NCBI GenBank assembly: GCA_023248955.1
Contig: JAHFDP010000022.1
Location: forward strand, 1 to 51,548
Origin: Deltaproteobacteria bacterium
GTDB lineage: Bacteria; Myxococcota; Myxococcia; Myxococcales; JAHFDP01
Reading direction: 5' to 3'
Length of the DNA: 51,548 bases
The stretch's first letter is position 1, and every line of letters starts with the position of its first letter. A program made the translations under genes and the position numbers. Positions 8,759-31,878 of this stretch are shown one piece after another. A model generated the notes under the pieces. That model saw nothing but the letters and a program-made list of their open reading frames with translations, was not told where the DNA came from and did no database searches.

Positions 8759-11700
8759 TTATAGCGCTTTCGGCTCCAGGACGATTTCGGCACTCTGCGC
8801 AGCATCGACGGCCGAGGCGAAGTCCTTGAACGCGTTCCACGCATCCGGGCCAACGCGGGCAGCTCCCAAATCCAGCCGTTCATGAAGGGTCAGGCTACCG
8901 GGCGCGGCACTGGAGGACCAGGAGAAGGCCGCAAAAGGAAGGGAGGAAGTGGTCGCGGGTGGCGCGACGATCTGCGTCCCGGCGGGAAGCGCGAGGCGGA
9001 CATCAATGCGGAGCTGTTCCGCGGAATCGATGAGCAGCGGAGTTACGCGCTCGGCGCGACCCACGAATCGGTGGCCGAGCCGAAGCGGCCAGAAGGATGC
9101 TGGGAAGGCAATCCGGCCGCTGTCGGTCCGGCGCGCAAACCCCTTGGCGTGAAAGCGGTAACGAAGCACCGCCGGATCGCCGGGCGCCGCCGGCTCTTCG
9201 ACCGAGAGATCGTCGAGCACCGCGCCGTGAAAATTGTGCGTGAGCTGCGACTCCAACGCCTGCTTGCGCTTCGCCGCTTCGAGCTGTTCGAGCGCTTCGG
9301 CCATGCCCGCACCCTGAAAACCCGTGGAGGTATCGACGGCGCTTCCGGTCAACGTCCCGTCGGGTTCTAGTTGAAGGTCAAAGACGATGGCGCGCGCGGA
9401 CTCCATTGCTCCGCGCCTTCGCGCTACGCCCGTCGCCAGCAAAGCTGGCTCCTCCTCCATTGCTCCGCGCCTTCGCGCTACGCCCGTCGCCAGCAAAGCT
9501 GGCTCCTCCTCATCCGTGGACTTCGGTGTGCGTTCTACGCGCACGGACTCGCCAGGCTCGGGAAGAATCGTGGCTTCGGCGTCGGAGAGAGACGAAGGCA
9601 GCGCACCGAAGGGCGCCATCCGCATCGAGGAGTCGATCCAGAGCGGGCCATCCGGGAAGTCCACACGCAACACGGCCGCTGTCCAGAGATCGCCGTGCGT
9701 AAAACGGTAGGGCGCCGGATCGGTTCCAAACGCGCGGATGAGCGCCACGTGGGAATGAATACCAGCCGCGGTGAGCGCCGCCTTGAGGACGGGCAGCCGG
9801 TTGCCGCGGCCGCTGGCCAAGACTTGCGCGGCGGACGCGGAGAAGTCCGTGGATCGACCGCGGCCACGGACCACCTTGGCGATGGCGGCATAGATCGCGG
9901 CTGCCTTTTCTCGCGGTGTGGAGCCCGGCGCGCTGCGCTCCAACTGATCGATCTCGAAGGCGGGCCGCGTCCGCAAAAGCGCGAAATCGGCGAACGACTG
10001 CGCCAGTGCCGCCTGGCCCGCACCCGAACCGACTTGAACCCAGGGCATGAACTCCGCCTCGCTCGTCGCACTGGGCTCGGGAACCAGCGCGGGGACTTTG
10101 CGCGCGGTGTAGGTCCAGCGATCGTACCCATCGGTTCCGACCGCCGCGGCGACATGCTCGATGGGTGGCGCGGAAAAATGATGCGCGTCGATCGTTAAAC
10201 CGGCAGCGGGCGCGGCGTGTACTTCGTAGCTGCTTTCGAAGATCGGAATTTCCGGCGCGCGAAAAGTAAAACTCGCCGATGCGAATCCCGGGAGCGCGGA
10301 ATCACGAGCGCCCATGGCACGAAGATATTCAAAATCGACGTAGTCGCCAGGTTCGAGACCACTAAGCGAAATCGAATCCTTGCCGGCGATTTCGTCTGGT
10401 TCGAGCACGCTTCCGTCTGGCTTGAGGGTCCGGAGAGCGACGATCTCGGCGCCGTCGGGGACGTTCACGTCGCCAAAATGCGCCAGGCCACGGCGGTCGA
10501 GGATCTGCGTAAGTGTGTGGATCCGCTCAATGGCCGATCCGTCGGCGTTCACCTCGAGCGCGGCCTGGTCGAGAAGCAACTCTGCCGGTGCTCCCCGCGC
10601 GGCGCCACCGGCGGCCCTGAACGAAGCGATGGCCTCCTTCGCGTCGCGATGAGCCCAGGCCAGTGGCGTTTGGCCATGCTCGTGATCCAGTGCGTGGCGA
10701 AGCAGGAGGTCGCCTCCACTCAGTCGCAAAGAAGCGTCGCGTTCCGCTTCCGCGGCGGTCTTGTCGCCCGCAAGCTCGAGCGCATTCGCCAAACGGTGGT
10801 GCAGCATGGCCGACCGCGGCGCGAGCTCGACAACCGAACGAAGGAGTGCCGCGGAGGCCACGGCATCTCCCGAGGCCAGAAACGCATCGGCCAGCGCCAG
10901 CTGCGGCGCCACGCGAGCGGGGGCCTTCGCCGCCAGCGACCGCGCCAGTTGGAGCGCACCCGCAACGTCTCCACGCTCTCGTAACCGAAGAAGCGAGGTC
11001 CGTCGGCCGTCTGGACAAGCCTTGACGAGTTGGGGAGCCAGCGCGTCTTCGGAAGCGGTGTCCTCTTCTCGGTGCGCAAGATCATCAAGCAACTGAAACG
11101 CATCGCAGCGATCGGGGTCACCGGCAAGCGCCTCGCCTGCCAAACGGCGGGCATCGGTGGTGTCTCCGCGCGCCTGGCGTAAACGCGCTTGGGCGATCAA
11201 CACACGCGAGGCGCCCGGAGCGGCCGCGGCGGCTAGCGCGAGACGCGTCTCGGCATCGTCGTAGTGCTCGGCATCGCGATCCATCGCCGCACGGTGGAGT
11301 TGGAGCCGTACCATGGATTTGTCGGCGGCCAACGCGGCGTCTTCGTCTCTCGCCGCGCGCCCCTTGGCCACGCGCTCCGGCAAATCGGCATCGCGCAAGG
11401 TCAGCTCCGCGCGCAACGCCAAGGCCGGCGCGCTCTGCGGAGCGAGTGCAACAACGCGTTCTATCTGCTCTCGGGCCGCGGCACGATCGTCCGGAAACGC
11501 AGCCAGCGCGGCCAAGAACGCTTCCGTCGATTCGTCTTCGGAAAATGGGGGCGGAGATTCAGCACTGGCGGCTGCATGCGGTGCTGCGCGCATCGTGCCC
11601 TTCGCGGGTTCGGTCTGCGCGTCGGAGTCCGAGCCGTCTCTTCTCGTCAGCGCGACACGGAAGCGGGCGCCCTCGGCACGCGTCCAACGCACCAGCACCC

Positions 11701-30706: not shown

Positions 30707-31297
30707 ATGCAAACCATCATCCTCGTTGCAGCGTTACTCTTCGCCACGTCCGCTCGTGCTACAGACGGCCTCGAAGTCATCGTCGTGGCATACGTTCTTC
30801 CAAATTTCGCCTTCTCGGTGGCCGGGTTTGGGAATGAAACAACCTCTTCCACGCCACTGAAACGCTCGTGTGCGGACTCGACGCGCTAGCCGTCGGTTAC
30901 GTCGGTTTTCGAATCGCGACCGCGCGCACGGATGGCCGGACGTCCTTCGCCTCTACAGCAGCCTTCGGGCTAGCGCTATGGCCGGCAGCGCTGGCGATTC
31001 ACGGTGCGTATAAGCCGGAAAACCACAATTGCCGTTACCTACGACGGCCGATCGCGGCCCGTCTACTTCGGTGCTCCTCCGGTGCCTCCTCAGCGCACCG
31101 AAAAGTGCGCTTCCGGGGGGCTCCTCGTCCGCGCCTCGCAGCCGAGCCACGCTCGGCCGTCTCGGTTCCACTGCAACTGTGGATTTCCGGCTAAGTTGGC
31201 CACGATTTCTTCGACGGCCAGCGCGCCCACTCACGTCACCGTTGCGCCGCTCATCACGCCTTCGTCCTCTGGCCTTGCGCTCGCCGGGCGGTTCTGA
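30707..31297 (+). pseudogene. Exported or membrane protein gene, frameshifted and interrupted by an insertion
   Basis: Three pieces form one ancestral frame. 30707 to about 30840 encodes a signal peptide (MQTIILVAALLFATSARATDG) and a hydrophobic stretch. From about 30841 to 31013 the reading continues in another frame (NLFHATETLVCGLDALAVGY...ALAIHGAYK), so a one-base deletion or two-base insertion occurred near 30840. After the element at 31014-31191 the frame resumes and ends TPSSSGLALAGRF-stop at 31297. Removing the element together with one TAA copy restores AYKLATISST exactly in frame with the middle part. The ancestor was a small exported protein with two or three hydrophobic segments, of unknown function. 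The frameshift position is approximate. Confidence 0.65.
31014..31191 (+). mobile_element. 178-bp MITE-like element with terminal inverted repeats and TAA duplication
   Basis: The ends GCCGGAAAACCACAATTGC and GCAACTGTGGATTTCCGGC are imperfect inverted repeats (17 of 19 positions). They are flanked by TAA on both sides (31011-31013 and 31192-31194). Similarity between the arms continues inward (GACGGCCGATCG against CTCGGCCGTC), so most of the element could fold as one long hairpin. It encodes no transposase and would need one in trans. Strand is arbitrary. Confidence 0.72.
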
Positions 31298-31303
31298 ACC
31301 CCG

Positions 31304-31600
31304 TTACGGGTGCGGCGTGATGGCCACGATTGTGATCTGCGCCTTGCTGGGTCCGTAGTGCCAAAACACGCGAAGCGCGCTGGGCGTTCGGTTTTCCGCG
31401 TAGGCCTCGAACACCTTTTCGTCCGCTACGCCGCGAAGCGAATGAAACTCGTGCGTCTTCAGACTCGGATGTCGGAGGTTCGTTTCTAGAAGCCCGAGCG
31501 TCTTCCGGACGGCTCTGAACTGCTTGGCTCTCGCCGGGGTCCGCTCAAGCTCCGCGAGTTGGCCCCGCGCTTCCGACGTGAAAACGAGCTTGAAGTTCAC
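31304..31600 (-). CDS. RelE/ParE-superfamily toxin
   Basis: This 98-residue protein looks like a RelE/ParE fold: MNFKLVFTSEARGQLAELER (strand and helix), RHPSLKTHEFHSLRG (basic core), and ALRVFWHYGPSKAQITIVAITPHP (closing strands). RelE members cut mRNA on the ribosome and ParE members poison gyrase. The residues do not clearly decide between them. The order antitoxin then toxin, with a 4-base overlap, supports a functional module. The gene ends 7 bases from the convergent pseudogene. Confidence 0.8.
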   Translation of the reverse strand: MNFKLVFTSEARGQLAELERTPARAKQFRAVRKTLGLLETNLRHPSLKTHEFHSLRGVADEKVFEAYAENRTPSALRVFWHYGPSKAQITIVAITPHP

Positions 31601-31872
31601 TCGACCTCGTCATCCGCGTAACGGGCAAAGCTGCCGAGGCTTTCGGTCTTGCCCGCTTTCGACTGGGCGAGCCCCCGCTTCACGCTGGCGAGCGCCTTCT
31701 TGCTCTGAAAGAGCCACTGCTCACGCGCCGGAATTTCGACGAAGGGCTCGAGCAGAATCCGACCGTCCGGCTCTCGTACGGCTCGGAAGCTACTCACGTC
31801 CTGCGCGAGCCGGCCGAGCGTGATGCGTCCCTTCCTGTCGGGACGAAGAATGGCGATGGCTGGCTTTCCCAT
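31597..31872 (-). CDS. AbrB-like antitoxin
   Basis: This 91-residue protein has an N-terminal swapped-hairpin-like part (AIAILRPDRKGRITLGRLAQDVSSFRAVREPDGRILLEPF), as in SpoVT/AbrB antitoxins. A C-terminal helix (FQSKKALASVKRGLAQSK) and an acidic tail probably bind the toxin. The ATG at 31872 lies 6 bases after a predicted -10 box, so the message would be leaderless. Two direct repeats overlap the -35 region and are a likely binding site for the AbrB domain. Confidence 0.78.
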   Translation of the reverse strand: MGKPAIAILRPDRKGRITLGRLAQDVSSFRAVREPDGRILLEPFVEIPAREQWLFQSKKALASVKRGLAQSKAGKTESLGSFARYADDEVE

Positions 31873-31878
31873 AAACGT

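Follow-up and report, generated by a model that had tools for sequence, protein, structure and literature searches.

In this study, we found that a 178-bp sequence in the window, i.e. the whole stretch of 51,548 nucleotides that was analysed, is one of about 40 copies of a MITE family (family 1) that is dispersed in the host genome. The family-1 element is a MITE, as all testable defining features were observed: terminal inverted repeats, target-site duplications, many copies, and a length of less than ~600 bp with no transposase encoded. Judged from its sequence, it was probably mobilised by an IS1380 element, and we consider it quite likely that the window element is a non-autonomous MITE with a modular hairpin body, on which an IS1380-family transposase acted in trans. 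A preliminary description of the window had already read the element as a MITE, which was borne out by the multiple copies, the target duplication, the hairpin and the absence of coding capacity. The module ladder, a 57-bp tail and a second family with different ends go beyond that description.

The window element and the reading frame that it interrupts

Two TAA copies (31011-31013 and 31192-31194) bracket an imperfect hairpin of 178 bp (31014-31191, plus strand); these coordinates, the TAA pair and the inverted ends are as previously described. The inverted ends (AGCCGGAAAACCACAATTGCCGT / ACTGCAACTGTGGATTTCCGGCT) are 87% complementary over 23 nt, and an inner second arm pair of 22 nt matches at 82%. 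Comparison of the genomic copies, together with the pairing of the arms, divides the plus strand of the element into a left arm with the terminal repeat AGCCGGAAAACCACAATTGCCG and an inner stem (31013-31075), a core with the hairpin GCGCACCGAAAAGTGCGC (31076-31122), a spacer CCTCGTCCGCGCCTCG (31123-31138) and a right arm that is an imperfect reverse complement of the left arm and ends in CAACTGTGGATTTCCGGCT (31139-31192). The window copy represents the form without optional modules (A0 B0 C0) and has no coding capacity. As a single strand it folds at -48.5 kcal/mol, compared with -32.6 +/- 3.0 for shuffled sequences (z -5.2; 0 of 200 as good). Thus, the proposal that the whole element could form one long hairpin is supported, both by this fold and by the pairing of the arms across 29 family-1 copies (see below).

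The host genome (G000; 3.83 Mb in 116 contigs, with several element copies at contig ends) was searched for further copies, as had been suggested, and 32 family-1 copies with both ends were detected, ranging from 178 to 507 bp. About a dozen more are incomplete, about six of them truncated or at contig ends and about six being solitary ends. The 178-bp form itself has eight other copies with 93-98% identity, besides many longer or partial ones. A minimal form of 34-38 bp (L050, C92:67365-67402) consists of little beyond the two ends and is flanked by perfect CTCAG copies. One solitary left-arm fragment (L045, C45:16806-16864) lies in frame in an M20-type peptidase (PF01546, E 7e-22), immediately after its signal peptide, and is a possible MITE-derived protein segment. 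Nothing comparable was found in 39 other genomes of the order; outside the host, the family-1 ends gave only single, unpaired matches among 195 genomes of the phylum, and viral contigs, plasmids and phages yielded only scattered likenesses of 27-48 bp or single unpaired end-like matches. The family-1 element is therefore known from one genome, and this host is the sole member of its family among the genomes compared, in which no empty site was found.

The preliminary description stated that the element was inserted cleanly in a reading frame and took this as strong internal evidence for its boundaries. The arithmetic is right, since deletion of the element and one TAA joins the frame as ...AIHGAYK-LATISST... 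and leaves it open to a stop at 31296-31298. However, the interrupted ORF (30707-31298, plus strand), which has a signal-peptide-like start (MQTIILVAALLFATSARA...), changes frame near 30835-30856: the ATG-started frame from 30707 is not the AYK frame, which is open from about 30835. The host ORF is thus broken twice, and the frame is weaker evidence than it looked, so that the case for insertion rests on copy number and target duplications. An uninterrupted homolog of the broken gene, the search for which had been proposed, was not found: the read-through protein has no convincing homolog in 193 genomes of the phylum (best E 0.002 at 31% identity), no Pfam match above the cut-off and no match in the PDB. 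Downstream of hflX lies the decayed orphan ORF that holds the window copy. The HflX protein is 62-66% identical to HflX of Myxococcaceae and delta-proteobacterial MAGs, by which the host was judged to be of the Myxococcota type. Beside the element, two small adjoining ORFs of 91 and 98 aa on the minus strand (31317-31875) show an antitoxin-toxin-like layout; neither Pfam nor NCBIfam gave a match for this pair.

One frame is open into the element (a 108-aa ORF), as would be expected if the sequence belonged to a conserved coding region. In that case homologous genes should carry the same 178 bp, which had been named beforehand as an observation that would speak against an insertion. Such genes were sought and not found; the same 178 bp occur instead in many unrelated loci, and the ORF has no homolog in the 193 phylum genomes or in Pfam. 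A coding origin was rejected, and we give it practically no weight.

Target sites and the candidate IS1380 partner

Five bases were read on either side of CCGG...CCGG in the 32 family-1 copies. The 3-bp core was identical on both sides in 22 of these copies; when the right flanks were permuted among copies, the mean was 6.4 and 0 of 20,000 shuffles reached 22. All but one of the 22 matching cores were TNA (21/22; TTA 8, TAA 6, TCA 6, TGA 1). All five flank bases agree in 11 copies, with YTNAR as consensus (e.g., CTGAG, TTCAA, TTTAA and CTTAG), and in the remaining 11 core-matching copies exactly one outermost base is different. In addition, the two terminal bases of the element form a complementary pair (G..C or A..T) in 28/32 copies and track the target, A..T copies being found mostly at T-TNA-A sites. 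Given the agreement of the flanks and the complementary end bases, the most fitting description is a duplication of 3-5 bp at a palindromic YTNAR target. The window copy is flanked by ATAAG (31010-31014) and CTAAG (31191-31195); here the duplication counts 3 bp by the strictest measure, and the earlier assignment of a TAA duplication holds for this copy; across the family it is a TNA core that extends to YTNAR. No matching core was present in 10/32 copies, indicating that some copies have been rearranged, mutated or recombined.

These duplications, which lie far above the shuffles, and the sharp ends strongly contradict the idea that the family is a REP/BIME-type palindrome moved by a RAYT, or a dispersed structured RNA gene, next to which the flanking repeats are incidental. 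The elements are indeed palindromic and GC-rich and show compensatory stem changes. However, REP/BIME sequences are short palindromes without target duplication, whereas duplications are present here and the sizes are 178-507 bp; moreover, Rfam models at gathering score gave no match in four element loci, and the genome contains remnants of DDE transposases with matching ends. We regard this explanation as highly improbable.

The preliminary description implied that a transposase partner is encoded elsewhere. A profile search of the host genome for DDE_Tnp_1_4 (IS1380) detected a sole match, C28:172-486, which is truncated and contains stops. It was assigned to IS1380 by PF13701 (E 2e-13) and the NCBIfam IS1380 model (E 1e-24), and its plasmid relatives, 37-47% identical, are annotated as IS1380. 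At C28:682-700, 0.2 kb past the remnant, lies the end ACCTGAAAACCTCAGTTG, from which the family-1 ends differ in 2-3 of 18 positions. The same end delimits another MITE family, about 155 bp in length (family 2; C77:18983-19137, C94, C97, C112, C114, and C64 with a nested insertion), to which the C28 end is closer than to family 1 and with which the remnant has a 22-bp inner stretch in common. The target type points in the same direction: the IS1380 elements of other Myxococcota have CCCGG or CCCG at their start and CTAG, CTGAA/CTGAA or TTCAG/CTCAG next to them, so that YTNAR fits the family (CTAG, CTGAA, YTCAG). For IS1247, an IS1380 element obtained by trapping, the duplications are 5 bp long (PMC3281130). 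Thus, a partner with a closely related end does exist elsewhere in the genome, but as a remnant: no intact IS1380 copy was found in the assembly, and the search for a full-length transposon with the same ends led to a truncated IS1380 whose end is related but not identical. From this remnant we infer that an IS1380-family transposase is likely the enzyme that moved the family-1 MITE. Such a transposase would recognise the terminal ~18 bp on both sides (RCCGGAAANCCACARTTG) and direct insertion to a short YTNAR palindrome, which would give rise to the duplication with a TNA core that is read at the copies.

Other candidates were examined as well. An apparently intact ISAs1-like transposase of 423 aa (L041/L244, C95:30050-31500) is located ~160 bp past a degenerate short element copy; as a partner it was rejected, as this transposase (C95:30712) is merely near a MITE fragment and no MITE ends surround it. 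A DDE_Tnp_1 ORF at C71:37684, obtained with the DDE_Tnp_1/DDE_Tnp_1_4 profiles, showed no sign of MITE ends around it. The solitary family-1 ends in C45, C61:6545, C43, C74 and C92 were read for a longer element, and none reaches a transposase.

Alternatively, the MITE might belong to a different transposase family, one that duplicates 3 bp of the type TNA (IS5/IS1031-like), its likeness to the IS1380 remnant being coincidental. By the strict count, many copies have a duplication of no more than 3 bp, with TNA as the core, and IS5-type remnants are also present in the host. Nevertheless, half of the matching copies are identical over the 5 bp of YTNAR, the ends of the C28 remnant and of family 2 agree with the MITE end at 15-16 of 18 positions and occupy the same type of target, and the IS5-type remnant differs in its ends and is flanked by TA. 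We therefore consider an IS5/IS1031-like origin unlikely.

One modular body with two kinds of ends

Apart from one 405-bp copy with a nested third element, the size ladder of the family-1 copies (178, 248, 311, 305, 368, 405 and 507 bp) is built from hairpin-forming modules at three fixed sites. On the plus strand of the window copy, these correspond to the points directly after 31075 for module A (69 bp, 0-3 in tandem), after 31122 for module B (~63 bp) and after 31138 for module C (~57 bp; copies in C32, C54 and C114). By arm sequence, three family-1 subtypes were distinguished. Each of them includes copies with no module, with A and with A+B, which indicates that exchange or loss of modules took place irrespective of the arms. 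Module C was observed in subtype III only.

A search with the 507-bp copy retrieved extra loci at about 80% identity that lack family-1 ends. These about ten elements (C49, C105, C7, C61:29677, C32:13240, C33, C25:67638, C36 and C92:99547) have AGGGCCTGTCCTCAAATT-type inverted repeats at their borders and TA next to these, carry the shared body between the ends AGGGCCTGTCC and follow the same size ladder (about 180, 250 and 307 bp). A comparison of the two families gave 25% identity for the ten outermost columns at the left and 31-43% for the right end. In the interior it is mostly 60-100%, except in some short variable segments and in the columns of module C, a module that is present in only part of the copies. 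A third kind of end, GGAGCCTGTCTCGATATTGCCC, was found in C33 near 10793-11033, where it surrounds module C and parts of the core. At C25:79485, the end AAGGCCTGTCCCTAAATT lies next to the final 28 codons of a transposase of the IS5 type, with a match to the NCBIfam IS5 model (E 1.5e-5) up to the last profile position, i.e. the exact C-terminus; one of its plasmid relatives is annotated as IS5 family. IS5 elements of the IS427 group make a 2-bp duplication, TA where stated (PMC4133298, PMC3281130). Since the AGGGCCTGTCCTCAAATT-type ends match the IS5/IS427-type remnant, the body is common to elements with ends of two IS families. By sequence comparison, the second pair of ends is unrelated to the first and matches an IS5/IS427-type element and a TA target, and both enzymes would have moved the body.

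In 29 family-1 copies, 1230 of 1273 arm cells are paired, with exchanges such as C-G/G-C in 16 vs 11 copies and G-C/A-T at a near-terminal pair. In a consensus hairpin for six family-1 and four second-family bodies, 96.1% of the cells are paired, and this value falls to 33-49% when the partner is slid along the same ten bodies. Changes on both sides were counted in 27 cells of these bodies, compared with 11.4 +/- 2.4 in shuffles that ignore relatedness, and many of these cells represent one change between the two families. The pattern favours selection on the paired state without proving it; the same outcome could result if the arms of a single hairpin correct one another.

It is plausible that one modular hairpin body was propagated by two unrelated transposition systems, the elements differing mainly in their outermost ~15-17 bp (IS1380-type ends and YTNAR vs IS5/IS427-type ends and TA) and keeping the hairpin by compensatory changes; we see about even chances for this. 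In our main reading, the GC-rich body between the ends folds into one long branched hairpin. As the sequences show, the modules at its three fixed points vary irrespective of the arms, and the same body is also found with the second, unrelated ends. Bacterial MITEs are usually pictured as deletion derivatives of one parent transposon. If two systems indeed moved this body, the unit that persists and replicates would be the body rather than the transposon end, possibly because its structure has a role as RNA or single-stranded DNA. The family is a useful case for how small parasitic DNAs may switch their moving enzyme, and with two transposase remnants in the same genome, the change of enzyme and the selection on the hairpin become testable questions.

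Known systems and associated small elements

Besides IS-derived MITEs in general, the IS1380 family (IS1247, ISEcp1) is among the closest known systems. With this family, the window element has in common ends that begin with CC-G-, a palindromic target of 4-5 bp and a remnant with a related end in the genome, whereas it lacks a transposase and its body is unrelated to the IS. A limited literature search revealed no IS1380-derived MITE family. In architecture alone, and not as a class assignment, the closest system is BOX of Streptococcus pneumoniae and S. suis, with fixed end modules, a variable number of inner modules and strong folding, and in S. suis the same boxB modules inside two sets of end modules (PMC3049150). 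In contrast to BOX, whose host is unrelated, the window family has three different optional modules at three fixed sites, and via remnants in the same genome each of its two end sets can be assigned to an IS family (IS1380 and IS5/IS427). Correia (CREE/NEMIS) and ERIC are small hairpin MITEs with size classes defined by an internal segment (107/155 bp; PMC2229807); unlike the window family, they have TA targets and one optional segment, and do not combine one body with two kinds of ends. In Porphyromonas gingivalis, the MITE BrickBuilt contains a variable number of inner repeats in tandem and has IS5-like ends (PMC4596501), but its units are 23-nt minisatellites and it has one kind of end.

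A unit of 57 bp with TTAG at its borders (TTAGTTTTCACCGGCC...GAGTTTCTTC, followed by TTAG) is present in 11 copies with 98-100% identity (L071-L081; C20:202-319, C71:46790, C77:19792, C61:12627, C11:53154, C6:13914, C112:97719, C92:143162, C28:700 and C80:21467) and had no match among plasmids. In 9/10 places it lies directly outside an IS1380-type end, with either MITE end, the IS1380 remnant or a family-1 relic end as its neighbour, and once it is in tandem; at C80:21467 it stands alone. IS1380 elements can mobilise adjacent DNA, as described for TMos in Paracoccus (PMC3281130). The unit may thus be a product of one-ended transposition, a reading that accounts neither for its presence at both ends nor for the lone copy at C80:21467.

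A third small element, with the ends AGGTTGTGAAAAA / AGCCTGTGAAAAA and apparent 5-bp duplications (CTCAG and CTGTG), was observed inside one family-2 copy (L055, C64:10397-10705) and one family-1 copy (L036, C73:38959-39363). As it is nested in copies of these two families, filled and empty sites occur inside one genome.
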